In this document: in pieces, positions 13,016 to 52,764 of the stretch
Layout: each line of letters begins with the position of its first letter
Numbering within the stretch: the stretch's first letter is position 1
Assembly: GCA_036374795.1 (NCBI GenBank)
Contig: DASUTC010000347.1
Coordinates: 124,001 to 188,000, forward strand
Source: Herpetosiphonaceae bacterium
GTDB taxonomy: Bacteria > Chloroflexota > Chloroflexia > Chloroflexales > Kallotenuaceae
Reading direction: 5' to 3'
DNA length: 64,000 bases
Position numbers and translations under genes: made by a program
The notes under the pieces: model-generated
What the model was told of the DNA's origin: nothing
Seen by the model: only the letters and a program-made list of their open reading frames with translations
Database searches by the model: none

Positions 13016-13254
13016 ACCGGAGGGCGTCGGAAGGTGCTATCCGATGCGCCTGCTCCTTTTGGCCCCTTCTCATTTCACGTCTCGACATAGCCCAGGCAGC
13101 TGATCAGGCATCCGGTCTGGTTCGGGCCGCGGCTGCGGTGAATCTGCTGCGCTCCGTCGTGCATGCCCCAGCGCGGACCCGTCTCGGTGCACTCGCGATC
13201 GGGATCAGTCCCCCAATAGTCCCAGTTCCTCCATAGGCCGACACGCCCCAACAT

Positions 13255-13298
13255 TGGCAGATAAGCCGGGTCCGATCGGCGCTCCCCTGCGCTATGCT
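13255..13298 (+). promoter_or_regulatory. Shared promoter-like element, copy 1 (TGGCAGATAA ... TATGCT)
   Basis: TGGCAGATAA at 13255-13264 and TATGCT at 13293-13298 are 38 bases apart start to start, and TATGCT ends about 72 bases before the ATG at 13371. The same pair at nearly the same spacing occurs at 29798-29840 and 30391-30434. TATGCT can serve as a -10 box; TGGCAGATAA lies too far upstream for a -35 box and may be an activator site. The remainder of 13016-13254 shows no gene I can support. Confidence 0.6.
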
Positions 13299-13370
13299 TC
13301 GGCTAGCTGTATCGGTGGCAGGGGAAGGTCTGCCCGCCGCCGTGATCCCAGACATGCTCTTGGAGCAAGG

Positions 13371-17615: not shown

Positions 17616-17694
17616 CGCGGCGGGGTCCGCTGCCGATCGACCGGATCAGAGCCCACCCACACCGACCTGAATCCTGAGCTGACGAGGAACGTTG

Positions 17695-19098
17695 ATGCCA
17701 AGCGCCCGTGCCAAACCGACCACATCGCCCAAGCCCGTCTCGCTGGCGGTCCGCTACAACACCCAGCAATCGCGTCAGGCGCTGATCCGCCTCGCCGCCG
17801 CGCTCGCGCCAATCGGGTTCTTTGGCGTGCCGAAGCTGCCCTCGCCGGTCGGCGGGTATGACTGGAAGGGCTGGTTCTGGCAGGGTCTCGAACCCACCCT
17901 GATGCAGTCCTTCCCGCCGGCGGGCACCGCGCCGATCCCGCCCCAGCCCCTGCTGACCTGGCTGTACCTCGCCTGGGCCGTTGCCGGGTTCTGGCTGATC
18001 GGCAGCCTGATCCAGCACCTGATGAGTTTGTACGCGCAGCGGACCCGTCCCCTCACGCTGGAGCGGACCTATCTGCGGCTGCGCACGCCGTTTAGCGTGA
18101 CGCTGAAGCCGGAGGATGGCGTGACGCTGCTCCGGACGCTCCACGGCCTCCTGCCCCGCGCCAATCTGCTGCGCGGCGACGGCACGCCGGTGGTGCTGCG
18201 CTGGACCGGGCGGCCCGAGCTGGCGGTGGTCCAGGGCCTGAGCGTGCAGGGACCGCCCACCCTGGTCACGAGTCTGCAAAAGGTGTTTCAGGGCGTGAGC
18301 CGCGGCACCAAGATCGACGTGCAGCCCGACCCGCTGCTGGCCGAGCTGCAGCCGGGCCGCGTCGTCTGCTGGACCGACATCCAGCTCCAGGGGCCGGAGG
18401 CCCTGGCAATCGCGATTCCATCCCGCGAGAGTCCGCTGCTGAGTGGCCTGCTGCAAACGCTGTCGCCGCTGCGCGACTGTTTTGTGAGCGATTTCCAGAT
18501 TCTGCTCCGCCCCGTCGCGGATCGCGCCTGGCGAACCAGGGTGCTGGCGATGCTGGAGCGGCTAAAGCTCGACGCCGGGTCGAGCGAACAGCGGGTGCTG
18601 GAGCAGAAAGCCGCCGGACCGGCCTTCGACCTGCATGTCCGGGCGATCGTCGTGGCGGCCTCGCCGGAAGCGGGACAGACGATGGTCACCACGATCTGCG
18701 CGGCGCTGGCCGCCTCAGCGCAGGCGATCGCCAACGCGGAACAGCGGCTCGTCGCCGGCCCGATTCAGGTGCTGCCGGCGGTGATTCCCGCGCCGCCACC
18801 CTTCCCCGTCACCCGCGCGCGACTCGCCTGGGTTACGGGCGTGATCCTCGCCGCGGCCGTTCTCAGCGCGCTGGTTGCCGTGTCGAGAACCCCCCTCTCG
18901 TCAGGGCTGGGACCGGCGATCTGGGCGCTCCCCGTGCCGCTCGTCGCCCTGCCGCGCGCGGTTCTCGGCACGCTGTGGTACCGGAGGACGCGGGCCGGTC
19001 TGCCCCAGCGTCTCGCCACGGTACTCGCGAGCGTGATGCCCGTTCGCAATCCGCGCGTCGTGCCGATCTGGAGCGACTGGCTCGGTCATCGGTCCTAA
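17695..19098 (+). CDS. Membrane protein paired with the conjugation ATPase, 467 aa
   Basis: Predicted integral membrane protein. One hydrophobic helix lies at about 82-106 (LLTWLYLAWAVAGFWLIGSL) and two more near the C-terminus (about 378-430). The middle (about 120-360) is a soluble duplicated-looking alpha/beta region beginning TYLRLRTPFSVTLKPEDGV. This order resembles the N-terminal membrane portion of large 'type IV secretory system conjugative DNA transfer' proteins of Chloroflexota and Firmicutes, here encoded apart from its ATPase. ATG at 17695 has GAGGAA just upstream. The stop is 34 bases before the ATPase gene, consistent with one transcript. I infer that it anchors the next protein at the membrane; the family resemblance is by layout, not by a catalytic motif. 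Confidence 0.75.
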   Translation: MPSARAKPTTSPKPVSLAVRYNTQQSRQALIRLAAALAPIGFFGVPKLPSPVGGYDWKGWFWQGLEPTLMQSFPPAGTAPIPPQPLLTWLYLAWAVAGFWLIGSLIQHLMSLYAQRTRPLTLERTYLRLRTPFSVTLKPEDGVTLLRTLHGLLPRANLLRGDGTPVVLRWTGRPELAVVQGLSVQGPPTLVTSLQKVFQGVSRGTKIDVQPDPLLAELQPGRVVCWTDIQLQGPEALAIAIPSRESPLLSGLLQTLSPLRDCFVSDFQILLRPVADRAWRTRVLAMLERLKLDAGSSEQRVLEQKAAGPAFDLHVRAIVVAASPEAGQTMVTTICAALAASAQAIANAEQRLVAGPIQVLPAVIPAPPPFPVTRARLAWVTGVILAAAVLSALVAVSRTPLSSGLGPAIWALPVPLVALPRAVLGTLWYRRTRAGLPQRLATVLASVMPVRNPRVVPIWSDWLGHRS

Positions 19099-19132
19099 TA
19101 TCCCATCCACCCAAGCAACCAAGGAGACCAGC

Positions 19133-21193
19133 ATGATCTTAAGTGCCGCCGAAATCGCCACCCTCTGGTGTCCGCCGACCGCCGACTTCGCCGATCGGGT
19201 CGAGCGGGTGATGGCCCAGTGGCTGCCGCCGCCCGCCAACGCCTTTATCGATCCCCACAATCCCCACCACCTCGCGATGGGGATGGGCGAGCGCAGCGAC
19301 GGGAGCTGGGCGCCGATCGGGATGCCCTACGATATGTTCCGCTTCATCGCCTGGATTACCGCGCCGATGGGCCGCGGCAAGTCGGTGATGCTGCTCAACT
19401 ATATGCAGGGGCTGCTCCGCGCCGGGGCCGGGTTTATGGGCCTGGACTGTAAAGCGAAAGATCTGGTCAACACGGCGCTGCCGATTATCCCCCTGGGCCG
19501 GGAAAAGGACGTCACGATCGTCAACCTGGACGGCTCGCGGATCACCGGCGAAGACCTGCGACCGGGCATGAACCTGCTCAGCCCCACGCTGGCGAAATCG
19601 CTCGGCCTCGACCCGTCGATGATGGCCTCGACCGTCCTCGACATCTTTCCGACGCTCGATCCGCGCTTCAACGAGGCCGTCGGCATCAAGCAGTTTGCCA
19701 ACTTCGGCATGCTGGCGCTGCTCGGCGGCGAGCCGCAGCCGACGTTGATGCACCTGATCCGCTTCTTCGGCGACGAGGACTACCGGGCGCAGGTGGTGGG
19801 GCGGCTGCCGGGCGCGTTCATCCAGGTCCAGGACTTCTGGGACCGCCGCTTCCCGGAGATGCCCCAGACCCAGCAGGCATCGCTGGCCTCGTTCGAGCGG
19901 CGGCTTGACCAGCTGATGTCGTTTCCCGAACTGCAGGCGATGCTGGTCGCGCCGTCGTGCAGCATCGACCTGCGCAAGCTGATGGATAGCAACGGCATCC
20001 TGCTGATGGGGGTGAGCGCCAGCCAGGGTCAGATCGCGTCGATCGCGATTACGCTGCTCCTCACTCAGCTGCGCCTGGCCGCGCTGTCGCGCACGAATGT
20101 CCCCGAAGCCCAGCGTCCCGACTGGCCGATCATCGTGGACGAGGTGCAGGTGATCGCCAACGACAACATCCCGCTCTTCAAGACGATGCTCAGCCAGTTT
20201 CGCTCGATGCGGATCGGCCAGGTGTATGTCCACCAGGGCCTGAGCCAGCTCGACGCCGAGGTGATGGGCGCGCTGGCCGATAACGCCGGGACGCGGGTGA
20301 TCCTGGGCTGCGAGGCCGACGACGCGAGCACCTATGCCAGCCTGTACCGGGCGCTGGGCCTGACCCAGACCGACTTTACCCAGATGGAAGTCCACCCGGT
20401 CCACAACTACGCGCTGCACCAGTATCTCAAGCTGGCCGGGCGCGGCAACCTGTTCAGCGCCGAGCCACTGCCCAAGCCGGAGCTGGTCCAGGAAGAGCCG
20501 CCGCCACGGGTGTACCGCAACTGGCGGACGCTGCTGGCGCCGGCGGCCAATAGCCGGGAGCGCGAGCTGGATGCCACGATCTTACGGTTTCATGAGCTGG
20601 CGAAGGTGCGCTGGGACGAGGCGGTGCAGCGGCTGGGCGCGGTCTGCATGCACAACCCGGCGGCCTTCGACGCCTTCTGCGCGCGGACCAAAGCCCACCG
20701 TCAGGCCCGGCGGCAGTTCATCCTGGATCATCCCGGCTGCGTGCGGATCGACCCGGAGCTGGAGGGGCAGGCAGCCATCCAGCAGCAGAAAGTCGACCGG
20801 ATTCGCATCCTCTCCGATCTGGGATCGGGCGTGCCGAAGCTAGAAACCGAGGCAATGGCGTTCGCGCTGCTGATGGCGTCGCGGGAGGCGAGCCAGGTGC
20901 GTAAAGAGCGGGCGGCGGCGGCGGAAGCCGCCAAGAAAGCCGCGAAGAAGGGTGGTGGGAACGCGCCGCCCCAACGTGTCGCGCCGGCCGGTCCGCTGGG
21001 CGCGCCGACGGCCGAGGAGCTGATGCAGCAGGACACCGTGGCAGCCCTCGCCGCGGAACGTGACCGGGCGACGCGGACCCAGCTGGACACGATTCCGACG
21101 CTCGACGAGCTGATGGCGGCGCGGGGCAAGCGGCGCGCGGCCGACGATCTGGTGGGCGGCTTTGAAGGCTTTGAACCGGACGTGGACGCCTAG
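19133..21193 (+). CDS. VirD4/TraG-like conjugation ATPase, 686 aa
   Basis: Cytoplasmic P-loop ATPase of the HerA/FtsK-VirD4 type. The Walker A motif APMGRGKS (about 77-84) deviates from GxxGxGKS at its first Gly. Walker B IIVDEVQVI (about 333-341) is typical of coupling proteins. The start LSAAEIATLWCPP matches the segment that precedes the ATPase core in fused relatives. There is no membrane helix; the preceding gene supplies those. The C-terminus (about 590-686) is charged and Lys/Ala-rich, perhaps a flexible partner-binding tail. AAGGAGA lies upstream of the ATG. The expected role is DNA or protein pumping at a type IV secretion-like channel, but no VirB4 or VirB6-type channel gene is visible, so the export target is unproven. 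Confidence 0.82.
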   Translation: MILSAAEIATLWCPPTADFADRVERVMAQWLPPPANAFIDPHNPHHLAMGMGERSDGSWAPIGMPYDMFRFIAWITAPMGRGKSVMLLNYMQGLLRAGAGFMGLDCKAKDLVNTALPIIPLGREKDVTIVNLDGSRITGEDLRPGMNLLSPTLAKSLGLDPSMMASTVLDIFPTLDPRFNEAVGIKQFANFGMLALLGGEPQPTLMHLIRFFGDEDYRAQVVGRLPGAFIQVQDFWDRRFPEMPQTQQASLASFERRLDQLMSFPELQAMLVAPSCSIDLRKLMDSNGILLMGVSASQGQIASIAITLLLTQLRLAALSRTNVPEAQRPDWPIIVDEVQVIANDNIPLFKTMLSQFRSMRIGQVYVHQGLSQLDAEVMGALADNAGTRVILGCEADDASTYASLYRALGLTQTDFTQMEVHPVHNYALHQYLKLAGRGNLFSAEPLPKPELVQEEPPPRVYRNWRTLLAPAANSRERELDATILRFHELAKVRWDEAVQRLGAVCMHNPAAFDAFCARTKAHRQARRQFILDHPGCVRIDPELEGQAAIQQQKVDRIRILSDLGSGVPKLETEAMAFALLMASREASQVRKERAAAAEAAKKAAKKGGGNAPPQRVAPAGPLGAPTAEELMQQDTVAALAAERDRATRTQLDTIPTLDELMAARGKRRAADDLVGGFEGFEPDVDA

Positions 21194-21241
21194 CCGGCGT
21201 CGCTCGCGTCCCACGTACCATATCTGAAAAGGACTCATTCC

Positions 21242-22270
21242 ATGACAGCGATTTTGCCGATTGAAGATCTGATTGGCCTGGGCGACGAGCGGGACATGGC
21301 GGTCCTGCGCGCGCTCGGACGGCTGGAGTTCATGGCCAGCCGGTGGCTCAAAGACCTGTTTTTTCCCAGGGTGGATCGGACGACGATGTTTCGCCGCCTG
21401 AGCCACCTGGTCAAGCTGGGCTTGATCTGGTACACCCAGACGGCGCATGCCGACATCGCGCCGGCCAGGACGGGGAGTCGGCAGCGCACGCTGAAGCTGC
21501 CCTACATCTACGGGCTGACGCCGGAAGGCAGGAATCTCCTCGACGCGCTGGATCTGGAACCCTACGCGCCGAGCCTGGCGGCGCTGCGGACGCGGGATCG
21601 CCGCGCGCCGGACGTGCCGAAAGCGCAGCTGGCCCACGATCTGCTGGCGGCGTCGTGGTGCGTGTCGATGATCGACGCGGCGCGGCGCTGCCCGATGGTC
21701 GACGCGATCTTCTGCCATGTCGAGTATGTGAGCGATCCCCGCCAGCGGATCGACGCGATCCTGGTGATTCGGTTCAACACGCAGCAGCGGACCCAGGCGC
21801 GATCCGGGTGGGACATTCCCTGGCATGACGGCTCGCCGGACGGTCCGCAGCATCAGACGGTGCGGCTGGCGCTGGAAGTGGACCGGGGCACCGAGCCGTT
21901 GAAGGTGCTGCTCGGCAAAGGCTTGATGTACCGGACGCTGACGGCGGAGCGGGTGTATCACCAGACCCTGGGCGGCCCCGTGCTGCCGGTGTTTCTGGTG
22001 CCGCCGGGCAAGCGGGCAGCACAGATCGCGCGGGAATGGCAGGATGCGTGGCCGGGCGGACCGGGCGTCATCTCGACGCCGAGCAAGGCGACCCATCCGG
22101 TGTATGGGGCGCTGTGGGGGGAGTATCTGACGTTGAAGGATGTACCGCCGCAGCGGGCGAATCTCCTGGGATCGCTGGTGGGGTCACCAGACGCCTGGGG
22201 GTCGCTGGTGGCGGCGTGGGTGCCGGAATTGCCGGAACGACTCACGCCGGCGCCCGTGACGGGTCGCTAA
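21242..22270 (+). CDS. Replication-relaxation-like winged-helix/nuclease-fold protein, 342 aa
   Basis: The N-terminus (about 15-65) is a winged helix with MASRWLKDLFFPRVDRTTMF followed by LSHLVKLGLIW, the pattern of the Replic_Relax family (PF13814) linked to plasmid replication and DNA relaxation. The C-terminal half carries RIDAILVIRF and, further on, LALEVDRGTEPLKVLLGK, arranged like a (P)D...(D/E)xD/K restriction-endonuclease fold common in that family. AAGGA lies before the ATG, and it follows the ATPase gene by 48 bases. It immediately precedes the iteron-like array at 22275, so action on that DNA is an attractive guess. Whether nuclease activity is retained cannot be told. Confidence 0.75.
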   Translation: MTAILPIEDLIGLGDERDMAVLRALGRLEFMASRWLKDLFFPRVDRTTMFRRLSHLVKLGLIWYTQTAHADIAPARTGSRQRTLKLPYIYGLTPEGRNLLDALDLEPYAPSLAALRTRDRRAPDVPKAQLAHDLLAASWCVSMIDAARRCPMVDAIFCHVEYVSDPRQRIDAILVIRFNTQQRTQARSGWDIPWHDGSPDGPQHQTVRLALEVDRGTEPLKVLLGKGLMYRTLTAERVYHQTLGGPVLPVFLVPPGKRAAQIAREWQDAWPGGPGVISTPSKATHPVYGALWGEYLTLKDVPPQRANLLGSLVGSPDAWGSLVAAWVPELPERLTPAPVTGR

Positions 22271-22274
22271 GTCA

Positions 22275-22385
22275 TGCGACAACCGACGCCACAACCGACG
22301 CCACAACCGCGCCATAACCGACGCGATAACCGACGCCATAACCGTGCAACAACCGCGCCATAACCGCGCCATAACCGCGCCACAG
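22275..22385 (+). repeat. Iteron-like array, nine AACCG units
   Basis: Nine direct repeats of 11-12 bases, consensus GCCAYAACCGAC or GCCATAACCGC, begin five bases after the stop of the replication-relaxation-like gene. The one-helical-turn period places every unit on the same DNA face, as in plasmid iterons or a multimeric protein-binding site. Confidence 0.8.
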
Positions 22386-22573
22386 ACGATGGGGTTTCGG
22401 CGCTCCCAGAGCGGAAAAACCGCCCGACATTATACGTGCATGCGGCCCCGATCACGAGTCCGATCCGCAGCTCGGATGGGCCAGTCCGGTTCCAAGGTCA
22501 GGACACGCATCCGGGCGATTCGCGCTGCTTCGGCGAGGCGGAGCCAGGCGACACAAGGCGGGGCAAGGTGAAG

Positions 22574-22660
22574 CCCTGCATCTGCCCTGCATCTGCCCTG
22601 CATCTGCCCTGCAATCTGCCCTGCATTGCATTGCTTCTGCATTGCTTTGCATTGCTGCTG
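22574..22660 (+). repeat. CCCTGCATCTG tandem array and TTGCATTGC array
   Basis: Five copies of CCCTGCA recur every 11-12 bases (22574-22626), followed by three TGCATTGC units to about 22660. Together with the AACCG array 200 bases upstream this makes a second helically phased repeat cluster. Confidence 0.75.
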
Positions 22661-23030
22661 CCCTGCGAGCCAGGTGGTGCTGTGACTGGGGACGCGCGCG
22701 ATCCCACTCCCAGGGGGACGCACGGAGCATCCGAGCGCCAGCGAGGGAGCGAGCGTGCTAGCCCCCGGTGCGAGCGCCGCAGTCCTGGGTCCGCGCCGCG
22801 CTGGGTGGAAGCGACCAGGCCATGTCGGCAGGATATGGCTGGAGCGGCTCGTCGGCGGGTGCGCAGGGGCACGTCGGCAGCGTACACCAGGTCGGCAGCC
22901 GCAGGCGGGCAGAATGGGACTAGGGACGCGCGCGTGCCAGGTGGCGATCGCCGAAGAGCAGATCGGCAGACCTGGCAGGTCAGCGAGTAGGAGCGCGTGC
23001 GTCCCTACCCTGGGCAGGCGTCGCAGGGGA

Positions 23031-23125
23031 TGTGACGGGTGAGATCCTTCGAGTATATTGACATAACTAAACAGGTGTCACATGGTGATCGGGAGCGGTC
23101 GAAACAGCCGCAGGCGAGATGTGAC
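23031..23125 (+). promoter_or_regulatory. Three TGTGAC boxes around a promoter-like sequence
   Basis: TGTGAC occurs at 23031-23036 and 23120-23125, and inverted (GTCACA) at 23077-23082, spaced 43-46 bases. TGTGAC at 23031 is 17 bases before TATATT at 23054-23059, and TTGACA is at 23058-23063. This could be the promoter and operator for the hydrolase gene at 23279, though the leader would be about 210 bases. Confidence 0.35.
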
Positions 23126-23278
23126 GGACCCGCCGCCGGGGACCAGGACGCCCCTCAGAGCGGCCAGGAACGGCGCAATCGAGCCGATCCACCAGGAACA
23201 CCGGAATCATAGCAGCACGGCCTCGATACGCGCCTCCAGCGGCACGTGCGGGCCCACAGTGCAGAAAGGGACGTCGTC

Positions 23279-23980
23279 ATGTCGGGCTTTCAAACACATC
23301 TGATCATTGGGGCGGTGGGCGGCCTGGGCCTTGCCCGCTGGCTGGACCATACCCAGGTGCTACCGCTGCCGAGCGGCGTCTGGCAGCTGGGCGCGCCGAT
23401 CATTCCGCTCGGCCTCACGGGCCTTGGGATCATCCTCGGCTCCGCGCTCTTAAACCTCTGGCCGGATCTGGACGAGCCAGGATCGTGGATGTCCCGCCGG
23501 TTGAAAGCGGCGGTGGCCCTGATTGCTGCGCCGCTGGTTGGCCTGGTCGGTTATGCCCTCGCCGCGCAGGGACGGCTACCGATGCGTCCCGAAGGTGCCG
23601 CCGTCGTGGGGCTCCTCCTCGGCGCCCTGCTCGTCGGGCCGCTGCTCGGCTGGTTGCTGCTCCGGCTGATTCGGATCGGCGCGGGCGGGCATCGCCGCCT
23701 GACGCACAGCCTCGTTCTTGGTGGCGTGCTGGCCGCGCTGGCGGTGGCGCTCTGGCGGAATGGACAGCCGATCTGGGCGCTCGTGCCGGCGGCGCTGGTC
23801 GGATCTCAGTGGCTGCATTTGTGTGGCGACCTCGTGACCGTGGCAGGCGTGCCCCTGCTGCACCCGATCAGCGCACGGGATTTCGGGTTGCCCAGACCGC
23901 TCGCCGTGGTCGGCGAACCCCTGATCACGGTCGTGGCCCTGCTCGTCGGCTCGTGGCTGCTCTGGGGCATGGCCGCATGA
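23279..23980 (+). CDS. YdjM-like membrane-bound metal-dependent hydrolase, 233 aa
   Basis: Integral membrane protein of the YdjM/DUF457 type, putative metal-dependent hydrolases. The sequence shows the family's spaced polar residues inside a hydrophobic protein: TH near residue 6, WPDLDEPGS near 63, GGHRRLTHSL near 140 and HLCGDLVTVAGV near 183. These His/Asp residues would form the metal site at the membrane face. At least five hydrophobic segments are evident. The frame is open to 23246, but ATG at 23279 has AGAAAGGG about ten bases upstream and gives the normal family N-terminus. In Escherichia coli ydjM is under LexA control; no LexA-type box is seen here. The substrate is unknown. The gene lies between the repeat-rich interval and a broken gene. 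Confidence 0.8.
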   Translation: MSGFQTHLIIGAVGGLGLARWLDHTQVLPLPSGVWQLGAPIIPLGLTGLGIILGSALLNLWPDLDEPGSWMSRRLKAAVALIAAPLVGLVGYALAAQGRLPMRPEGAAVVGLLLGALLVGPLLGWLLLRLIRIGAGGHRRLTHSLVLGGVLAALAVALWRNGQPIWALVPAALVGSQWLHLCGDLVTVAGVPLLHPISARDFGLPRPLAVVGEPLITVVALLVGSWLLWGMAA

Positions 23981-24429
23981 TCGACCAGGGCGCGCTGGGC
24001 CAGCGGAACGGTCGCTCGATCGGGATCACCCGGCTCACCGTGCTGGCAACCGCCGGTCACGACGCTGGGAATCCCCTCGGCGACCAGCTGCACGGCCTGT
24101 TCATCCTGGCACGGCAGGCGGACGAATCGCGTGGCGAGACCTCGGGTCTGCGCACGGACCGGCGCGCGTCTGGTGGTAGGTGCATGCGTCGGGGTGGATC
24201 GGGCGGCAGGAGCCACGGATGCGGAGCCGCGCCGTCCGTCAACGGCCACGCACTGGGGTGTGACCTGCCGTGAGGACCACGTCTCGCCATGCGGGATAGT
24301 GCGTCCTGATGCGGCAAATCGCGTGGCGAGACCTCGCGATCATGCTCGTTGAGACCTGCGGATTGGGGCTGGACCGGCGAGCGCAAACGCCGGGATGGAC
24401 GTTCGATCAGCGCCAGAAAGAAGGACACA
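23981..24429. other. Interval with a 20-bp direct repeat, no supported gene
   Basis: AATCGCGTGGCGAGACCTCG occurs at 24124-24143 and again at 24316-24335, 192 bases apart. A 98-codon frame overlapping the hydrolase stop (23977-24273) has biased, low-complexity composition and no recognisable features, so it is not called a gene. Confidence 0.5.
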
Positions 24430-25035
24430 ATGACCCTGACGTACGACGCATTTTGAACCTTGGCGGTCGATGATCCGCTGTCCCCGGTCCGGGGATCACG
24501 AGTTCCTTTGGGTGAGGATCGCGCGCTCGCCGAGCAGCTGCGTGCCCACATCGTCGCCCATGCCGATGTGGCGAGCGAGGTGGTGCTGCGCCCGCTCGTC
24601 GGCGTGGCGCTCCAGCTGCCGGAGTGGGCCAATGCAGCGGAGGTGGCGCGGGCGATCGATGCCGAACAGGTCACGGCCGGCTTTCTGGATTTTGGGGGCC
24701 GGTGCTGTGTCGCGGTGCCAGCCGCGGGGGAACACCTGGAGCAGACGGCGCATGCGGTGGCCAAGGTGCTGCATGGCCTGCTGGAGATCCACACGCCCTA
24801 CATTAACCGCTACGCAGATGCGTGTGACGAGCCGGAGCTGCGCGCCGTGGACGACGTGGCGGCGATCGAGGCGGTTTGCGAGCTGTTGTCGGCGAACAGC
24901 GCGCTGATCCGCCAGATTCAGGCGGTGCGCGCCCTCGCCCTCGCGCCGGAGCTGCGCGCGCTGCTCGACGAAAGCCTGCAGCTCGTGATGGACGAAATCC
25001 ACGCCAGGCGAACAACCGGGCGTGTCGCCACATAA
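24430..25035 (+). pseudogene. Unknown alpha-helical protein gene with an early in-frame TGA
   Basis: AAGAAGGA precedes ATG at 24430, which opens MTLTYDAF and then meets TGA at 24454. The same frame continues without interruption from 24457 to the stop at 25035 (about 190 codons). The continuation reads like a real soluble protein, with LPEWANAAEVARAIDAEQV, a short FLDFGGRCCVAVP strand and C-terminal helices. Either a nonsense mutation has inactivated the gene, or translation starts downstream at a TTG (24460 or 24508), neither of which has a good ribosome-binding site. No family is recognised. It lies upstream of the two hairpin repeats and the MSCD-domain genes on the same strand. Confidence 0.5.
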
Positions 25036-25040
25036 GGCAG

Positions 25041-25098
25041 ATGTCTGCACATGCTGATTCAGGGCATCACAATCACGCAAACCAGCATGTCCAGACAT
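25041..25098. repeat. 58-bp hairpin element, copy 1
   Basis: Arms ATGTCTGCACATGCTG (25041-25056) and CAGCATGTCCAGACAT (25083-25098) pair at 14 of 16 positions around a 26-base loop that includes TTCAGGGCATCACAA. Copy 2 begins 122 bases further on with the same loop. Confidence 0.75.
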
Positions 25099-25162
25099 GC
25101 CGTCCGCAGCCGACGCTACCAGGCCCTACGGCCTTCGACCGTGCGCACGGCAGGATACGGGG

Positions 25163-25220
25163 ATGTCTGAACATGCTGATTCAGGGCATCACAACCACGC
25201 AAACCAGCGTGTCGAGACAT
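25163..25220. repeat. 58-bp hairpin element, copy 2
   Basis: Arms ATGTCTGAACATGCTG (25163-25178) and CAGCGTGTCGAGACAT (25205-25220) flank a 26-base loop differing from copy 1 by a single base. One arm change (A to G) leaves a possible U-G pair, so the fold is retained as RNA. The elements sit between a damaged gene and the MSCD-domain operon. Confidence 0.75.
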
Positions 25221-25335
25221 CCGCCGCAGCAGATCGGCAGGCCCAGCTGACCGGTACGACCGATCCCGGTCCGAAGCCAACCGCGATCGCGGTCCGTCCG
25301 GTTCCGCCGTTTCGCTGACCGCGTGAGGGGGTGCG

Positions 25336-25445
25336 CATATACACCACCTGAACCGCACCGGCTTCAACGGCCTGTGTCGCTTCAATCGGCGCGGCGAGTT
25401 TAATGTGGCGTTTGGACGGTACACGACCACCAGGTACAGGCGCCA
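25336..25445 (+). pseudogene. Fragment of a Dam-type adenine-N6 DNA methyltransferase
   Basis: One frame reads HLNRTGFNGLCRFNRRGEF and then NVAFGRY, matching the strongly conserved Dam/D12-class segment LNRTxFNGLYRVNxxGxFNVPFGxY. The catalytic DPPY motif and the target-recognition parts are absent and there is no start codon, so only a short internal piece survives. It lies about 80 bases before the first MSCD-domain gene, which suggests that this operon was inserted into or recombined with a methylase gene. Confidence 0.6.
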
Positions 25446-25525
25446 TTTCAGTGCCTATGCCGCACTGCTTCGGCGGTGGCGAGGAATCTGGCTACCTGTG
25501 TCGAGATTACATGGAGCGGTACGTG

Positions 25526-26596
25526 ATGAGTTGCGACCAGAATCGAAAGACGTATGTTGCCGCGTTGACGAAGCATGGCGGACCGCTCGCCGATGCGCTT
25601 GGTGGCTCGGTGATCGCCCCGAAGGTGCTGGAGGCGGTGTTCAATGTGGCGCGCAATCAGCCGTTGCCCGACGATCCAGCAGAACGAGCGAGCCTGCTCG
25701 TGCAGGCCGAGAGCGCGACGCGCCTGTTGTTTGCACGGATGCGGCAGGCTGGGTTCACGCCACCAACCCATGCCGCGAACGGCCTCCCCCGGAAAGATGC
25801 CCAGCGTGGCTATGGAGCCATTCACCAGACGATTCGCGCGATCGAGCAGCGGCAGAACCTGCCGAAGCTGGCACATGCGATTCTGGAACAGCACACGCCT
25901 TCTGGAGCAGCACGGCATGTCCTCAAAACACTTCCACGGGTTGCCGCTATCACAGAAGCTGAGCGCTTGACCGATGAGGATCGTGATGCGTTGAGCGTGG
26001 CATGCGACTATCTGCTGCGCAGTGACAGTCCGGTGCCGATCCGCGCCTGGTCCGAGGCTCGGAACACGCCTGATTGGCAGATCGCCGCTCGTACCACAGC
26101 ACGCGCTATTTCCCTGCTTGCCGCCATGCCAAACGCCGTTTCCTCGACCACGTTTAAGGACGATCCCGGCGAGGTTCCAATCGGTGCCCGCTTGACCCTT
26201 TCCTGTGGCTGCGTTTGGGAGCGCACGGCTCGGGGACAGCGTGAAACGTCTGCGGCGTGGTTTCGGTTGCGCGAACGGTGCGATGGTAGATGTCCAAACG
26301 ACGCGCGGATCGGTGCTCGGCGATGGCTCCCGTCATCCGACAAAGATGCCCGCGTGCTTGGCCCGCAAACGTGGGAGGAGTGGGCGGTTAACAATGCCCA
26401 TTGCCTACCAAAGGATGTGTTCGACAAAGATGATATTGGTCGGCTGATGGGGATACCTGACGAGCCAGCTACCAGCGAAATGGCACACGTACGCCGTGTC
26501 GAGCGAGCGCTGGTGTTTGCTGGTCGCTTCGAGCTTGTTCGTGGTGGATGGAATCCCCGTTATCGGCTCCGACAGACGGATGAGGCAGGGGTATGA
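25526..26596 (+). CDS. MSCD-domain protein with C-terminal winged-helix-like segment, 356 aa
   Basis: The shortest of four window proteins sharing an N-terminal domain of about 120 residues: MSCDQNRKTY, then VLEAVFNVARNQP, RLLFARMRQAGFTPPTH and GLPRKDAQRGY. The middle has clustered cysteines (SCGCVW near 226 and RCDGRC near 252) that could bind zinc. The C-terminus (about 285-350) looks like a winged helix: a DIGRLMGIPD segment, then VRRVERALVFAGRFELVRGG and a YRLR wing. ATG at 25526 is chosen because it restores the shared MSCD start and has GGAG nine bases upstream, although the frame is open to 25403. Its stop overlaps the next start as ATGA, implying translational coupling. Function unknown; a DNA-binding member of the MSCD set is likely. 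GC is lower than in the conjugation genes. Confidence 0.8.
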   Translation: MSCDQNRKTYVAALTKHGGPLADALGGSVIAPKVLEAVFNVARNQPLPDDPAERASLLVQAESATRLLFARMRQAGFTPPTHAANGLPRKDAQRGYGAIHQTIRAIEQRQNLPKLAHAILEQHTPSGAARHVLKTLPRVAAITEAERLTDEDRDALSVACDYLLRSDSPVPIRAWSEARNTPDWQIAARTTARAISLLAAMPNAVSSTTFKDDPGEVPIGARLTLSCGCVWERTARGQRETSAAWFRLRERCDGRCPNDARIGARRWLPSSDKDARVLGPQTWEEWAVNNAHCLPKDVFDKDDIGRLMGIPDEPATSEMAHVRRVERALVFAGRFELVRGGWNPRYRLRQTDEAGV

Positions 26597-29500
26597 GTTG
26601 CGATAACAACCGAGCAGCATTTACGACGAAGATGGCGGCAGACCCTGCGGTTGCCGCGGCGTTGGGCAACGGCGATTCCAACCTGGCGGCAAGCGTCCTT
26701 GAATCGGTGTACCAAACGGCGAAAAGCCAGGCTGAACGAACGGATCAGCGGCAGTGGCGATCCGGGGATATGTCTCCGTCGGCACGCGCGGCTTTCTTGG
26801 CAGCGCAAGCCGGGTGTACCGCGCTCTTCCATCGGATGCTCGCTGCCAAGCTCAAACCACCCGTCCATGGCAAGCCACGTCCAGGCCACTCCCTTGCGCT
26901 GCCGAAAAGCGCGGCTGCTCAAGCAGGCTATGCGGCGATCGAGCAAACGCTCCGCGCGATCGAGCAGGGCAAACCCCTCCCGGACGTGACGCATGATCTG
27001 CTCGCTGCTCGTGGCGTGAGGCAGCACCCATCCGGGCCCCAGCGAACCGTGACGGCACAGATGGATGCCTTGGCTGGTCACCTGGGCACCATCCCGGTCG
27101 ATCCCGATCGACCACCGCTCGCCGGATTCCTCACGGCGCTGATGCGTGGGGCGCTGGACCCTGCAACGATGAGCGAGGACGAGTTGTACCAATCCATGAC
27201 TCGTCTGATCCGTACCGAAGAAATGCAGCAGGCATTCATGCGCGTGCCCCGTCTGCTTGACCTCGCGCGCGGTGATGTGGCGGATGGTGATCCCGCTCTG
27301 CGGCGCGAGCTCGATCGTGCGGCCGAGGGCGTGGTGAGCGCGGCAGACGACCGCGACGAGCCTGTTCCACCTGCGTTAGCGGCAGCCGCAGCGGCCTATC
27401 AGGCCGATCCATCCACGGCGGCGGCATTTGCCGTCGCGCTCGCCGAGACAGCCGGTCTGCCGCGCTGTCCCCAGTGCGGTCAGTTCCAAGATGCCGCAGG
27501 GCAGCATGCCTGTGCGATCCGCAGCGTCATCGACACCTTTCCAGCGCTGCGCGTTCAAACCGAGCCACCGTACCAGGATCGGCAGGGACTGGAGCAGTTG
27601 ACCGCGCCGGCGGTGCATGCGGCGTTGACGAGGGCGGCACAGGGGCTGTGTGGGCCAGCCGTCCCCTCACGCGTGCGGGCGGCGGCCGAAACGTACCTGG
27701 GAGCAACCGCCACCGGTCCGAGCGCGGCGGCAACCCGGGCCTTTGTGGCGATCGTGTGGGCGGCGGGCGAAACGACGCCCGCGACGGAGCAGAGCCACGT
27801 CCGCATGCGCGAGGTGATCGCCCGCCGCATCGAGCAGCTGCCCTGCCTCAATCTGGTGAATGGCATCCATGACCAGGATGCCCGGCCGGCGATTGCGGGA
27901 CTGCGCGGAACAGCCAATGGACTCCTGAGTACGCCCGATGCTCCGATCGATTGGCGTTTGGCTGCCGCGGCGTGGCAGCAGCAGCGTCCGTTCAACGATT
28001 GGTCGCCGACGGCTGCGCATGATGTCGCCTTTGCGCGCTTTCTCGCGGAGACGAGCGGTCTGCTTCGATGCCCGCAGTGCCAGCAGTTCATGTCACCATC
28101 ACGGGACCATGGCTGTCCGGCGATATTGCCTGCCGCACCGATCCAGGTCACGCCGACGATCGTCGCTGTCGCCTCGGGCCGTGGGAGCTTTCCTGCGAGC
28201 TTCCGCCAGCCGAGCCCTGACCTGCAAGCCCTGGTGGACCTGGCGCAGGCACTTGCCGCTGATCCGCAGACGTATGGAACCGCGCGGGGTGCCGCGGCGA
28301 ACTTTCTGATGCGCCTGCACGAGTTGGAAACACGGTATGCCATTGGCGTGCCAGTCGCGTCGCTGGAAGGTGCCTGTCTGGATCTTGCGCGGGCGGCGTG
28401 CGAAGATGCGGGGTTGATCCACTGCGGCGGCTGTCCTGCCTATGTCGCCGACCCAGCGCAGCATGACTGTCCCAATGATGGCTCTGGGTGGTCAGTGCCG
28501 CGGGTGATCGACGAGGCGGTCACGACTCTGGCTACAACGCCGACGCTGGTGGACTGGCTGAACCGTCAGCGCCATGCTGGACTGGCCGCAAGCGACGCGC
28601 TGACCGATGATGAGTTGAGCGCCGTCCTTTCGGCCATGGTCCGCTTTGAGGACGGCGCCATCGACGATGAGCTGTCCACAGGTGCCTACGCGTTGCTTAC
28701 GGCGGTCAAGCAGGTCGGCCGGGTTGGGTTGGATACGCCGCAGCGGGGCGGCACCCTCCAGGAGCGGATCGCGGCGATGGCCTTGGTGGACCTGCTGTGT
28801 CGTCGTGCCGGTCGGCAGCGCTGTCCCGACTGTGGTGCATGGATGGTAGCAGATGGGTCCCACGCCTGCCTGACCCGTCTCGCCCGGCAGGCGACCGCTG
28901 CTGCGCGCTCGCCGGTCGACGTCAGGCAGCGGCTGCAGGCTAGCCAGGATCTCGACGACGACGCGCGTGCGGCTGCCCTGGGCCAGTTGATCGCCGAGGG
29001 TCATGCGGACGCCGTCGTTGGGTGGGTCCGTCAGGAGGAACGCCCACGGCTGCAGGTGCGCACGCTCGTGCAGGCAGCAGCCACGCTGCAGGGCGTGACA
29101 CGCCAGCACACGGTGCAGGCCGCGCTCACCTGCGCTGCTGCGATTGCGGATGATGATGTCCGCGCCCATGCGTTGGTCGAGGTCGCCCGGGCGCTGGGTG
29201 ACCGGGCGAGCGATGGACCCCTTGCGGACCGCGCGCTGGAGCTGGCGAGACGGGTGCGGGTACCCGCCTATCGGGCACGTGCCTTGGCGCAGCTGGTTCC
29301 GCTGACCGCGCCTGACGCGCAAGCAGCGGTCGTGGCGGAAGCCCTGACCGATCTGCAGGCAGGGGTCGATTCCACGATTCAGTATGACGTGTTGAGCACC
29401 CTGGGCGCGACGACCCCAGCAGCCCACCTTGAGCCGGTGGTCCGCGCCACGACCCTCCTGAAGGACACCACCCACCGCGACATTGTCAGATCGATCATCA

Positions 29501-29727
29501 CCGAAACCTTGGCGCGTGGCAGCAGGCATGTCGCCGCCTCGATCATCGTCGATGGCATCCGGTCAGGAGAGCTGCGGTCGAAAGCGATTGTGGAGATTGC
29601 CACCAGCACCACCATTCCCGTTGGAGCCTGGGCCGCGTTCTACCGGGCAGCCGAGCGCATTCGTGCGCCGCGGTGGCGTGCGCCAGCGCTCGCCGCATTA
29701 GAGGACAACGCACGGCGACGGGCCTGA
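26593..29727 (+). CDS. MSCD-domain protein with four zinc knuckles and C-terminal helical repeats, 1044 aa
   Basis: Begins MSCDNNRAAF and contains the shared N-terminal domain to about residue 140. Four short Cys/His knuckles follow: CPQCGQFQDAAGQHAC (about 295), CPQCQQFMSPSRDHGC (about 495), CGGCPAYVADPAQHDC (about 613) and CPDCGAWMVADGSHAC (about 745). Each is CxxC...HxC, able to bind one zinc. Between them are helical segments of similar spacing, suggesting repeated modules. The last 280 residues resemble HEAT/TPR-like solenoid repeats (ALVEVARALGDRA, ARALAQLVPL). The start overlaps the previous stop by four bases. No enzyme motif is seen, so a scaffold or adaptor in a complex with the other MSCD proteins is the best guess. 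Confidence 0.82.
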   Translation: MSCDNNRAAFTTKMAADPAVAAALGNGDSNLAASVLESVYQTAKSQAERTDQRQWRSGDMSPSARAAFLAAQAGCTALFHRMLAAKLKPPVHGKPRPGHSLALPKSAAAQAGYAAIEQTLRAIEQGKPLPDVTHDLLAARGVRQHPSGPQRTVTAQMDALAGHLGTIPVDPDRPPLAGFLTALMRGALDPATMSEDELYQSMTRLIRTEEMQQAFMRVPRLLDLARGDVADGDPALRRELDRAAEGVVSAADDRDEPVPPALAAAAAAYQADPSTAAAFAVALAETAGLPRCPQCGQFQDAAGQHACAIRSVIDTFPALRVQTEPPYQDRQGLEQLTAPAVHAALTRAAQGLCGPAVPSRVRAAAETYLGATATGPSAAATRAFVAIVWAAGETTPATEQSHVRMREVIARRIEQLPCLNLVNGIHDQDARPAIAGLRGTANGLLSTPDAPIDWRLAAAAWQQQRPFNDWSPTAAHDVAFARFLAETSGLLRCPQCQQFMSPSRDHGCPAILPAAPIQVTPTIVAVASGRGSFPASFRQPSPDLQALVDLAQALAADPQTYGTARGAAANFLMRLHELETRYAIGVPVASLEGACLDLARAACEDAGLIHCGGCPAYVADPAQHDCPNDGSGWSVPRVIDEAVTTLATTPTLVDWLNRQRHAGLAASDALTDDELSAVLSAMVRFEDGAIDDELSTGAYALLTAVKQVGRVGLDTPQRGGTLQERIAAMALVDLLCRRAGRQRCPDCGAWMVADGSHACLTRLARQATAAARSPVDVRQRLQASQDLDDDARAAALGQLIAEGHADAVVGWVRQEERPRLQVRTLVQAAATLQGVTRQHTVQAALTCAAAIADDDVRAHALVEVARALGDRASDGPLADRALELARRVRVPAYRARALAQLVPLTAPDAQAAVVAEALTDLQAGVDSTIQYDVLSTLGATTPAAHLEPVVRATTLLKDTTHRDIVRSIITETLARGSRHVAASIIVDGIRSGELRSKAIVEIATSTTIPVGAWAAFYRAAERIRAPRWRAPALAALEDNARRRA

Positions 29728-29797
29728 GGTCACCGGTCAGCCTGCACCACCGCGGCGACGAGGAAGCCGATGAGCCCGATGTCCGTTCGTGGCAAAG

Positions 29798-29840
29798 TGG
29801 CAGATAACGCGCTGATCTTGGCCACACGGCTTGGTATGCT
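29798..29840 (+). promoter_or_regulatory. Shared promoter-like element, copy 2
   Basis: TGGCAGATAA at 29798-29807 and TATGCT at 29835-29840 (37 bases start to start) lie 86 bases before the ATG at 29927. This is the same pair as at 13255 and 30391. The interval 29728-29926 otherwise has no gene. Confidence 0.55.
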
Positions 29841-29926
29841 GGTGGGGGACGACCGAGCGCAGCAAACCACCCAGTGAATCACCACCCACGTTCACGCATG
29901 ACTCTGTATGTTCCTGAGGAGACACT

Positions 29927-30331
29927 ATGCCAGATACGCACCGCCGCTATTTCTTCTATCACAATGCGCAGACCGACTTTTTTGAGCTGGGCTACCTCGC
30001 GGAGGGGCTGCCCGGCGTGGTGCTCTACCGGTCCAGCGCGCTCGGCAGCGGCACCGGCCGTGCCCTGCTGGTGTGGCCGCTCCGGGCGGAGACCCCGCCA
30101 CCGCGTCTGGCCATTCCGGCGTCGCTCATCGCGCAGCCGCCCTTTCGGTTCTGTTCCGCCGCCGAGGCGCTGGCGGCGTTCGAGGCGTCCTTTCGCGACC
30201 TCCGCTGGCTTGGCTTCGAGGACCCCTTCGCCCAGCGCTGCTGGAATGTGCCGGATCTGGTCGCCCAGTTCCAGCGCCAGGTCGCCGCCGATGCCCAGGC
30301 CCGCGCGCGCCACGCGCGGCAGGCGGCCTGA
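29927..30331 (+). CDS. Small protein of unknown function, 134 aa
   Basis: No family recognised. The N-terminus is aromatic-rich (RRYFFYHNAQTDFFELGYL), followed by a beta-rich middle and a helical C-terminus with CWNVPDLVAQFQRQVAADAQ. GGAG in GAGGAGACACT precedes the ATG by a normal distance. It has its own copy of the shared promoter-like element and lies 186 bases before the first ParB-like gene, so it is probably co-regulated with the ParB/MoxR/VWA run. A compact soluble partner protein is the most that can be said. Confidence 0.65.
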   Translation: MPDTHRRYFFYHNAQTDFFELGYLAEGLPGVVLYRSSALGSGTGRALLVWPLRAETPPPRLAIPASLIAQPPFRFCSAAEALAAFEASFRDLRWLGFEDPFAQRCWNVPDLVAQFQRQVAADAQARARHARQAA

Positions 30332-30390
30332 TCGACAGCCCCCATCCCCCAACAGTCCCGCTCAGCGGATAGGCCATCACCGACACCGAT

Positions 30391-30434
30391 TGGCAGATAA
30401 GCCGCACCCCAGCCCGCTTCTGCTGCGCTATGCT
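30391..30434 (+). promoter_or_regulatory. Shared promoter-like element, copy 3
   Basis: TGGCAGATAA at 30391-30400 and TATGCT at 30429-30434, 38 bases start to start. TATGCT ends 83 bases before the ATG at 30518. Identity with copy 1 extends over TTGGCAGATAAGCCG and CTGCGCTATGCT. Confidence 0.6.
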
Positions 30435-30517
30435 GGATGCTGCAAGCTGTCTCGGCGGGAATGTCGCTGCCCTGGATGCGCCAGGAGCGAGCACCGCCCG
30501 TGTCCAAAGGATGACCG

Positions 30518-31816
30518 ATGCCGAACCACCCGACCCCCGCACCCACCGACGCGCCTGACGTGGCCGTCGCCGATCAGCTGGCTGGCCTGCCGCTGCGGAT
30601 CGCCCTCGTCGATCTGGACGAGGATCTGACCCAGCCACGCCAGGAGTTTCCCGACGATCGCCAGCAGGAGCTGACCGCGAGCGTCGCCGCCGCCGGCATC
30701 CAGCAGCCGCTGCTCGTCCGTCCCGTGGGGAACGGCCGCTATGTCGTGGTCGATGGCGCCCGCCGCAAGCGCGCGGCGGAGGCGGCGGGCCTCCGCGAGG
30801 TACCCTGTGTCCTGTGCGACGAGGTGAATTGGCTTGCTGTCAAGCAGAGTCAGCTCATCACGAATGGCTTTCACCAGTCCCTGACGCCGCTGGAGCTGGC
30901 CCAGACGCTGGAGCTGCTCTGGCTCGGCCACCAGATCGCCGCCTTTGAAGCCGATGCGGGCGATGATGGCACGCAGACGGCGGTGCTCGTGGCGGCGGCG
31001 GGCAGTCCCGCCCGGCAGATCGCGGCGCTGCGCGACCGGCTCTGCGCGCTGTCCGGCTTTCCGAACCGCGACGCCTACCTGAGCAGCGGCGCCCACGTCC
31101 GCGTGTCCTGGACGACGGTCTTGGAGGCCATTGGCCTGGTGCAGATGACCGCTGACCAGCGCAAGCGTCTGCTGAGCCTGCTCGACCTGTCGCTGGAGGC
31201 CCAGGACGCGCTGGCCGGCGTCGACGTGAGCCAGCGCACCTTGCGGGAGCTGGCGCAGCGTCCGCCGGACGAGCAGCAGGCGCTCATCGCGCAGGCGCAG
31301 GATCAGGACGATGTCGGCGCGGCGCTGCGGCAGGCACTGAGCGCGCCGCTGCAGACCGACGCTGCACCGGAGCGGATCGCTGACTGGTCGCCCGAAGCCC
31401 TGGCCCAGGCTCTGGATGCGGCAGACACCGCGGACGCACCCAGCTCCGCCCGAGCCGGGCAGCGGGCTGCGCGCGGCGATCCTGACGACGGGCTGCCGCT
31501 GGATGTGGATGCCGATCAGCGCGCGACGTTTGAACCCGATCCGACGCTGGCGCTGCCGTTTTCAACCGGTCCAGGCCGGAAGCTGGTCTCGGAGCGGGGC
31601 GACATTGGCCGGGGCTCGCTGCCGCCGGATGGTCACGAGTATTGGTCCGAGGACGAAGCACTGCAGCTCTCCGGCGCGCTTGAGGCCGCCCTGAAGGTGC
31701 TGGACGGTGTCGGGCCGGGCTATCTGTCGGAGCAGCACTGCGGCTGGCTGCAACCGATGTGGCAGGAACTGGTCCTCCGCCTTGATGCTGCCGGGCTGGC
31801 GGCCCAGCCGGACTAG
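30518..31816 (+). CDS. ParB-like nuclease-fold protein A, 432 aa
   Basis: The N-terminal domain (about 28-110) matches ParB/Srx: LRIALVDLDED, then QQELTASVAAAGIQQPLLVRP and DGARRKRAAEAAG, the counterpart of the GERRxRA box that binds CTP in ParB. A helical middle region (about 130-280) could be the HTH part. The C-terminal half is acidic and Ala-rich, with no ParB dimerisation domain recognised. It is the first gene after promoter copy 3, 51 bases before a second ParB-like gene. No ParA ATPase is visible in the window, so classical partitioning is doubtful; site-specific loading or recruitment of the downstream AAA+/VWA machine is an alternative. Confidence 0.8.
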   Translation: MPNHPTPAPTDAPDVAVADQLAGLPLRIALVDLDEDLTQPRQEFPDDRQQELTASVAAAGIQQPLLVRPVGNGRYVVVDGARRKRAAEAAGLREVPCVLCDEVNWLAVKQSQLITNGFHQSLTPLELAQTLELLWLGHQIAAFEADAGDDGTQTAVLVAAAGSPARQIAALRDRLCALSGFPNRDAYLSSGAHVRVSWTTVLEAIGLVQMTADQRKRLLSLLDLSLEAQDALAGVDVSQRTLRELAQRPPDEQQALIAQAQDQDDVGAALRQALSAPLQTDAAPERIADWSPEALAQALDAADTADAPSSARAGQRAARGDPDDGLPLDVDADQRATFEPDPTLALPFSTGPGRKLVSERGDIGRGSLPPDGHEYWSEDEALQLSGALEAALKVLDGVGPGYLSEQHCGWLQPMWQELVLRLDAAGLAAQPD

Positions 31817-31867
31817 GCGCGTCGGGACTCGGGTCTGAACGAAGGCGACCAAAGGCGCAGGACGATC

Positions 31868-33043
31868 ATGCAGACATCTTCCCCCCAATCTGGCGCGGCC
31901 CGTGCTGCTGCGAGCGGCCCGGCGGCTGATCCGGGACCGCCCACGCTCCAGGTGCTGCCCGTGGCGGCGATTCGGACCACGGCGCAGAACCCACGGGCCA
32001 CCGAGACGGCACTGGACGATCTGATCGCCAGCCTGGCCGTCGAGTCCGAGCCGTATCTCGCGCAGCCGCCGTTGGTCGAGGACCGCGGCGACGGCGCGTA
32101 CCGGATCATCGCCGGCGAGCGGCGCGTGCGCGCGGTGACCGCGGCCGGCTGGGCGACGCTGGCCTGTCTGGTCTATCCCGCGCTTGATCCGGCCCTGGCC
32201 CACGAACTGCGCCTGGTCGAGAACCTCCACCGCGCCGCCCTCGATGCCCTGGACGAAGCCTGCGCGCTCCGCATCGCCTGGTTCCGCGCCAATGCCGATG
32301 CGCTGGGCGTCGGCGTCGCCGCACGGGACATCCTCGGACGGGAGCACCCGCCGACCGAGACGCTCGCGCAGCTGGGGGCGCTCCTCGCCACGGTGGGCTT
32401 CGCGCCGACCCGTCCGGTGGTGACCTGGGAGCAGGTGCTGGACCGCTTGGGGCTGGATCTCAGTCCGGCGCAGCGGAAGCGCCGGATGCGGTTGTTGTCG
32501 CTCGACAGCGCGGTGCAGGCGCAGGCCCGCGTGCTGGACCTCAGTCCGGCGGCGATGCGGGCGCTGGGGACGCTGGAGCCGGCCCAGCAACAGCGGCTGC
32601 TGCAGGAGGTTGCGGAGGACCCGCGCCTGGCCCGGAAGATTCGCCGCATCGCCAGCACGGTGACCAAGGGTACCTACACGCTGGACCAGGCGCTCGACGA
32701 GGCCCGCGGCCGGGTGCGGTTCGCGGCCGATCCGGACGGCGGCGCGGCCCGCGAGCTGCCAGCCCTGAGCGGGGACGCCGATGTGGGGGAACCAGGTGCG
32801 GCTGGGGGACCGGATGACGCGGCCGTGGCCGCTGCGGACAGCGGCCCTCCCCAACCGGATCAGACGGTGATCGATGCGGTCATGGAGCTGATTAACGTCG
32901 CCAGTTCCGTGACGTCCGCCGTCGCCACCTTCAAACGCGCCATCGGCACCCAGTCGATCGCCGCGCTGGGCGAGCCCTGGGGCGGCTATGCCCAGTACGC
33001 GCTCGCCCTGCTGCGCGATGCGACCACGGAGCTTCCAACCTGA
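31868..33043 (+). CDS. ParB-like nuclease-fold protein B, 391 aa
   Basis: Clearer ParB than its neighbour: LQVLPVAAIRTTAQNPR (about 28-44), then YRIIAGERRVRAVTAAGW (about 78-95) with the canonical GERR box, and ELRLVENLHRAALDALDEA at the junction to the HTH domain. Residues about 120-280 are helical with an HTH-like stretch. The C-terminus has a linker followed by a helical segment. The two ParB-like proteins differ in their box-II sequence (DGARRKRA against GERRVRAV), so they probably diverged in function; A may have weakened CTP binding. The MoxR-like gene follows after 41 bases. Confidence 0.85.
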   Translation: MQTSSPQSGAARAAASGPAADPGPPTLQVLPVAAIRTTAQNPRATETALDDLIASLAVESEPYLAQPPLVEDRGDGAYRIIAGERRVRAVTAAGWATLACLVYPALDPALAHELRLVENLHRAALDALDEACALRIAWFRANADALGVGVAARDILGREHPPTETLAQLGALLATVGFAPTRPVVTWEQVLDRLGLDLSPAQRKRRMRLLSLDSAVQAQARVLDLSPAAMRALGTLEPAQQQRLLQEVAEDPRLARKIRRIASTVTKGTYTLDQALDEARGRVRFAADPDGGAARELPALSGDADVGEPGAAGGPDDAAVAAADSGPPQPDQTVIDAVMELINVASSVTSAVATFKRAIGTQSIAALGEPWGGYAQYALALLRDATTELPT

Positions 33044-33084
33044 GCCTTGGCATTGCACGAGTACACCGTGAAAGGAATTTGTCC

Positions 33085-36525: not shown

Positions 36526-36574
36526 CCCGCAGGGGACGCGCCGACGGCTGCGGCTCCGGTGTGCCACGCATCCA

Positions 36575-36814
36575 TCAGGTGACACCGGGCGGGGGTGGGG
36601 GCGTCGGGCCAGCGCCCCGGGAGGGCGGGAGGCGGCGGAGATAGAGGACCCCGGTGGTGGGATTCCAACTGGTCGCGGCGATCCCGGCGGTCTGGAGGTC
36701 GGCGTCGGCGTCCTGAAACAGGGTCCAGCCCGGATCGCCGGCGGCCAGGATGATGATCCGGGTGGCGTCGGGAAAGGCCCGGCGGGCCAGGGCTTCAAGC
36801 TCGGTGTCCTGCAT
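36575..36814 (-). CDS. Small hypothetical protein, antisense in the MoxR-VWA gap, 79 aa
   Basis: A 79-codon frame opposite to its neighbours, lying wholly inside the 400-base gap between the MoxR-like and VWA genes. It reads like a small alpha/beta protein (LEALARRAFPDATRIIILA, then TSWNPTTGVLYLRRLP) with a Pro-rich tail. The ribosome-binding site is weak. It might instead be a chance frame in GC-rich DNA. The remainder of 36526-36926 holds only the VWA gene's leader, where AAAGG lies about 12 bases before its ATG. Confidence 0.4.
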   Translation of the reverse strand: MQDTELEALARRAFPDATRIIILAAGDPGWTLFQDADADLQTAGIAATSWNPTTGVLYLRRLPPSRGAGPTPPPPPGVT

Positions 36815-36926
36815 GGCGGTATCGTACCATGACGCCGCCGGTGTGGGTAGCGGCCCGCGGCGGTGGACCGGCGAGGGCCTGCCGCGGTCGAATCAGGCAG
36901 TCGGTGAAGCGAAAGGTCCGTAGTAT

Positions 36927-48848: not shown

Positions 48849-49053
48849 GGGAGTTCCTTCTCTCGATTGACGTGACCGCTTGAGCCACGCGATCGATCGT
48901 GATCGCAGGTCAATCAGCATGGGTTTGGGGGGGTGCGAAACAGGCGAGCAGGGCTATTGGGCGAGGTTAGCACCTCAGCGCATAGGTCGTGGGCAACGTG
49001 GCACACGCGCTCCTTTCTACGCTATGGGTGAACACGTGAGTTTCCGCCACGGA

Positions 49054-49911: not shown

Positions 49912-49926
49912 ATTCGTGTTCTCTTT

Positions 49927-52600: not shown

Positions 52601-52764
52601 GTTAAATAGTAGGAACAGCCACCTGCCCAGCCAGGCGCACGTCCGGCGCTCGCGATTCGCCGTTGCATTGTGGGGGAAGCCGTGGGTGCCTACCGCAAGC
52701 CCTCGACGCTGGCAGGTATCGGTATCCTCAAGGTGTGCCGCAGGTACGTTCGTGAGAAGGTGCG

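Follow-up and report, generated by a model that had tools for sequence, protein, structure and literature searches.

A duplicated long-loop hairpin element, possibly a 3'-end hairpin, behind ORF191 of a Chloroflexota conjugation-type mobile element

Intrinsic terminators, like the hairpins that stabilise 3' ends, are stem-loops that lie a few bases behind a stop codon on the same strand, and tandem copies of them occur. The element described here is alike in these respects, but it differs in its 26-nt loop, in the lack of a T-run, in a loop that is conserved as well as the arms, and in the loss of the stem in a homologue. The attC sites (59-base elements) of integron cassettes also resemble it, being imperfect inverted repeats of about 59 bp that stand directly behind a gene and near variable cargo; however, the element has, as judged by eye, no RYYYAAC/GTTRRRY core at its ends, no integron integrase was seen beside it, and it is not repeated behind different genes. 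REP/BIME elements are likewise short intergenic hairpins, from which this element differs in that three copies were found in 7.7 Mb, two in tandem behind the gene ORF191 and one behind a paralogue of that gene. As for the oriT regions of conjugative elements, they share with it the presence of inverted repeats in a conjugation-type module, whereas the present element follows ORF191 and is separated from the Replic_Relax gene by about 2.8 kb.

The window, that is, the whole stretch of 64,000 nucleotides that was analysed, is part of contig C347 of a 7.7-Mb genome, and the ORF191 module within it belongs to a conjugation-type mobile element of a Chloroflexota bacterium. The features that matter here are the following.

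19133 to 21193, plus strand: TraG/TraD-like coupling protein (PF12696; 21.9 bits against a cut-off of 22)
21242 to 22270, plus strand: Replic_Relax protein (PF13814)
23246 to 23980, plus strand: YdjM-family membrane protein (PF04307), the upstream gene in the ORF191 module
24460 to 25035, plus strand: ORF191, no Pfam family at E 0.001, stop codon 5 bases ahead of copy A
25041 to 25098, plus strand: copy A of the hairpin element, arms 25041-25056 and 25083-25098, 26-nt loop, 15 of 16 arm pairs
25099 to 25162, plus strand: spacer between copies A and B, no significant likeness to the 3' ends of ORF191 or to the flank on contig C56 (test over 25099-25161)
25163 to 25220, plus strand: copy B of the hairpin element, arms 25163-25178 and 25205-25220, 26-nt loop, 13 pairs and one G-U
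25526 to 26596, plus strand: first MSCD gene, 356 aa, no Pfam family at E 0.001; the variable cargo starts here, behind the element

The order around the element is thus TraG/TraD-like, Replic_Relax, YdjM and ORF191, then the MSCD genes and two ParB_N proteins. ORF191 has its stop codon at 25033-25035, and the stem starts at 25041 on the same strand; a predicted structure of ORF191, built from two sequences, reached a pLDDT of 44.6 and was useless. Between YdjM and ORF191 (23980-24460), contig C56 of the same genome has a 388-aa ORF (L003 2006-3172) that overlaps YdjM, the window counterpart of which is shorter and, by eye, seems broken by deletions. Several large genes at 25526-42134 open with an MSCD..NR motif and a related N-terminal stretch, which occurs at four places in the window contig and at two on contig C86; apart from an AAA domain in one of them, no Pfam family was found in these genes. 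By eye, a TGGCAGATAA-like word with TATGCT about 30 nt later was seen at 13254-13298 and at about 29800-29850, ahead of the transfer genes and of the ParB genes; C56 and C86 carry similar sequence. Elsewhere, at 57241-61942, the window holds a pPIWI-RE island whose genes encode the domains REase, Y and Z; a beta-CASP nuclease (53093-55639) and a tyrosine recombinase (55712-56884) are encoded nearby.

Copies A and B are direct repeats, 122 bp apart from start to start, with 54 of 58 bases identical (93% over 59 when one flanking base is included, 25040-25098 against 25162-25220), and the repeat is real and local. The earlier note, written from the DNA letters, had described two such copies with 16-base arms and a 26-base loop in both, which the repeat comparison bears out. 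It had also mentioned one change compatible with U-G pairing; such a change is present, but the copies differ at four sites (8, 33, 47 and 52 of 58), three of them in the arms. Besides the U-G change, one arm difference falls at an already unpaired position, and the third, C in A and G in B, makes a pair that is present in A and absent in B, which carries two arm mismatches. Inside each arm of A lies the dyad ATGT-N4-ACAT.

The strength of the hairpin was compared with chance by scanning the window for 16-nt arms separated by loops of 15-40 nt, with overlapping hits left unmerged and two Markov-shuffled windows as control. Arms with at least 14 matches were found at two places, 25040-25044 (best 15/16) and 34771-34772, the latter within a long ORF, while the shuffled windows gave 4 and 0 such hits, none of which reached 15; in the whole-window scan 15/16 occurred solely at copy A. 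With at least 13 matches there were 50 hits against 22 and 8 in the shuffles, and copy B is therefore unremarkable by itself, because hits of 13 matches occur in shuffled sequence too. The word of the left arm, with up to three mismatches, was present 6 times in the window, 5 of these within copies A and B, against a shuffle mean of 1.5. Folded as RNA, both copies were more stable than 200 of 200 shuffles, with z values of -3.6 (plus strand) and -6.0 (minus strand) for A and of -4.2 and -4.6 for B, the minus strand giving the better fold in each case. With DNA parameters the values were -3.5 (plus) and -4.6 (minus) for A and -2.3 and -1.8 for B. The stable stem expected of an intrinsic terminator was found in A and B, and none in the third copy, C.

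Copy C, the one further copy that BLAST and model searches of the same genome recovered, lies at C56:56864-56931 and starts 5 bases behind the stop codon of an ORF191 paralogue that is 84-86% identical. It matches copy A at 44 of 58 bases (76%), and with 9 of 16 arm pairs and folding z values of +0.25 and -0.73, i.e. like those of its own shuffles, the hairpin has been lost. Between A and C, the arms have changed at 8 of 32 sites and the loop at 6 of 26, the loop having diverged as much as the arms. Consequently, the conserved loop that had been proposed holds up weakly, since the likeness of A and B reflects their duplication. Over the same divergence ORF191 and its paralogue differ at 21, 15 and 69 of 191 first, second and third codon positions, and on this older branch the comparison indicates weak constraint across the entire element rather than at arms kept by covariation. 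The modules themselves correspond over window positions 13183-25096 and C56 positions 44549-56924, in blocks of 76-84% identity with gaps between. This homology extends through ORF191 and fades about 15 bp past the element, behind which different genes follow: the MSCD genes in the window and a stretch of 111-bp repeats on C56, where the score of window against C56 was equalled by 47 of 1000 shuffles. Homology to the window picks up again on another contig, C86, near window position 29912. Because copy C follows the ORF191 paralogue and is then followed by other sequence, the element is tied to ORF191 and not to the MSCD genes, to which the earlier note had linked it as an upstream element.

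Whether the pairing itself matters was addressed in two ways. Across A, B and C, which are few sequences, the covariation analysis that had been proposed found no compensatory arm change in any of 15 pairs; arm columns paired at 85.2% against 84.4% with shuffled partners, and partners slid by 1-3 columns paired at 18-40%, as expected for arms drawn from these copies. RNAalifold reported three double changes, namely two outer-flank pairs and one loop pair, which with three sequences are not evidence. With C as outgroup, A changed at sites 8 (unpaired) and 52 (a new pair), and B at sites 33 (loop) and 47 (U-A to U-G), so that the three arm changes since the duplication lost no pair and gained one. 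Random changes do as well in 0.7% of cases when both copies are considered and in 1.8% by the sum, and they lose no pair in 4.8%, figures that concern three changes only and come from a test devised after the changes had been seen. The changes since the duplication have spared pairing, a suggestive result, and pairing may be under selection in A and B, in which case copy C would be a decayed version.

Searches farther afield covered relatives, the phylum and mobile elements. An Rfam scan of 24000-26000 gave no credible match, the two miRNA matches being far below gathering scores. The idea of a structured RNA is thus supported by a real, duplicated hairpin and by later changes that spare its pairs, but not by compensatory changes, by the fold of the other homologue or by Rfam. 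Within the 7.7-Mb genome a dispersed repeat was rejected, as BLAST and model R1 found three copies only, and the loop pattern with 3 mismatches recovered A and B alone. At E up to 10, model R1 gave 8 matches in the genome: copies A, B and C themselves, A and B again on the reverse strand, and weak ones at window 24274-24339 (E 0.26), on C158 (E 0.29) and on C231 (E 2.5), the last two unrelated by eye. A coding sequence was also dismissed, as by eye the changes between A and C had no third-position bias in the two frames read. As a side observation, a second long-loop hairpin lies upstream of ORF191 at 24279-24334 (14-nt arms with 12 matches, 28-nt loop). Its right arm falls within a 20-nt sequence, 24317-24336, that is repeated at 24125-24144, and local copying would seem to have produced the hairpin. 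On the opposite strand, its left arm has a 14-base word in common with the right arm of copy C, and scans found no hairpin at the place on C56 that matches 24274-24339.

A DNA query found 1 of 60 relatives, the genome itself, and 3 of 400 genomes of a phylum sample, namely the genome itself and short matches in G351 (a distant genome of the phylum; 23 of 24 loop bases) and G350 (28 nt, within a long open frame). In G351 the likeness extends to part of the right arm, with alignment scores that 4 (A), 32 (B) and 31 (C) of 2000 shuffles reached, and a pattern built on the G351 match was found in 2 of 400 genomes (own and G351) and in no viral contig. Its place, G351:C50 about 7796-7844 (L071 / L075), is intergenic, just ahead of a small gene and between other genes, without a left arm. 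At E 0.1, model R1 matched 5 of 82 genomes, the own genome and four others, all four set aside: G011 (E 2.8e-5) has a different, more perfect hairpin, G430 (E 0.011) was taken as coding by eye yet has ATTCAGGGCATCA in common with the loop, and G012 and G421 had no visible likeness. Over 15 sources the model gave nothing below E 2.1 in eight loci of relatives, while plasmids (8 records) and phages (2 records) yielded matches each covering 7-15% of the query. ORF191 itself was found in 1 of 400 genomes, its own, and not in plasmids; in the family at E 1 it was found in 2 of 6, the second of which (G001, E 0.74, three internal stops) was dropped. The Replic_Relax protein is present in 12 of 400 genomes, and two loci of relatives, L066 and L067, have the gene order of the window (a 468-aa gene, TraG, two Replic_Relax genes, YdjM and ParB); in these two, tblastn with 13 window proteins against 11 loci found no match to ORF191 or the MSCD genes, and the element is lacking. 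In the data searched, phage, plasmid, viral-contig and genome-contig sets included, the element therefore has no clear homologue outside this genome, and the literature abstracts searched do not mention it. The search for further copies that the earlier note had proposed thus yielded one in the genome, with decayed arms, which goes part of the way towards the note's own refutation, and no clear homologue in relatives.

Given its position, strand and company, the likeliest role of the element is that of a non-coding hairpin that closes the ORF191 transcription unit at its 3' end, in the manner of a terminator or stabiliser, a function that we infer and to which we assign a probability of roughly 0.38. 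Here we speculate that in the plus-strand RNA the stem would form at the end of the ORF191 message and either stop or protect it, that it might insulate the conserved operon from the variable cargo behind, and that the second copy could act as a back-up. In a related module, L066 has a 12-bp perfect hairpin at 15449 behind the YdjM gene; in L067 the scan found no hairpin directly behind YdjM. The missing T-run behind copy A or B, the large loop and the stem loss in C speak against a terminator of the standard kind. Terminators do not typically have a loop of 26 nt, and a terminator scan of 24900-25600, which allowed loops of 3-8 only, gave 0 sites. Moreover, a plain terminator would not require its loop to be as well preserved as its arms, as is the case here. 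The better RNA folding of the minus strand and the lack of compensatory arm changes also count against the 3'-end reading.

Alternatively, the arms might be half-sites, and the duplication an array, for a DNA-binding regulator, partition or transfer protein of the mobile element; this is one of the two main rivals, a recombination site being the other, and it is possible but on balance unlikely. It would fit the ParB_N-domain and Replic_Relax proteins encoded nearby, the dyad in each arm of A, and the 9 occurrences of the arm-like word CRTGKYSAGACRT (up to 1 mismatch) in the window, 7 of them in 24130-25220, against 0-3 in five shuffles. However, the word was taken from these very arms and the count is partly circular, as 4 of the 9 are arms of A and B and two more belong to one 20-nt duplication (24125-24144 and 24317-24336); in addition, the inner dyads are not retained in copy C and the site is not upstream of a conserved gene. 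We consider it doubtful that the element is a neutral leftover, i.e. a functionless palindrome that arose by chance or template switching and was duplicated once. The searches found no clear homologue elsewhere, copy C is unpaired, and the palindrome at 24279-24334 in the same kilobase, with one arm in a 20-nt copy of nearby sequence, suggests that local copying may make palindromes here; yet the element has stayed 76% identical to C while 69 of the 191 third codon positions in ORF191 have diverged, and after the duplication no arm change cost a pair.

It seems improbable to us that the element borders a cargo slot as a recombination site, with cargo being exchanged beyond a conserved module in a manner somewhat resembling the sites that follow cassette genes. 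The recombination target proposed in the earlier note has circumstantial backing in that the homology of the two module copies ends at the element and resumes on C86, but this falls short of showing a recombination site. That L066 and L067 have neither ORF191 nor the MSCD genes would agree with exchange, and on C86 the left half of copy C is matched at the far end with a score of 29 (2 of 2000 shuffles); this match was, however, found post hoc, 17 to 35 of 5600 tile scores being as high, true copies included. At the far end in the window there is no significant same-strand match, one opposite-strand match (score 28, 11 of 2000) being present, and the sequences behind the element are not wholly dissimilar. 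Furthermore, the sole recombinase among the genes given to Pfam is the tyrosine recombinase 30 kb away, and none of the three copies is dispersed. Very improbable is the wider version of this reading, namely that the conjugation-type elements of this Chloroflexota group have an undescribed system of cargo exchange. The element would serve that system as its site of recombination or transfer; conserved modules would end there, the cargo beyond would be replaced, and half-sites would mark the slot's far end.

If the hairpin merely closes the ORF191 message, as in the 3'-end reading that we prefer, it would be an ordinary, though unnamed, regulatory detail. If the element instead borders an exchange slot, it would reveal the way in which these Chloroflexota mobile elements swap their cargo.
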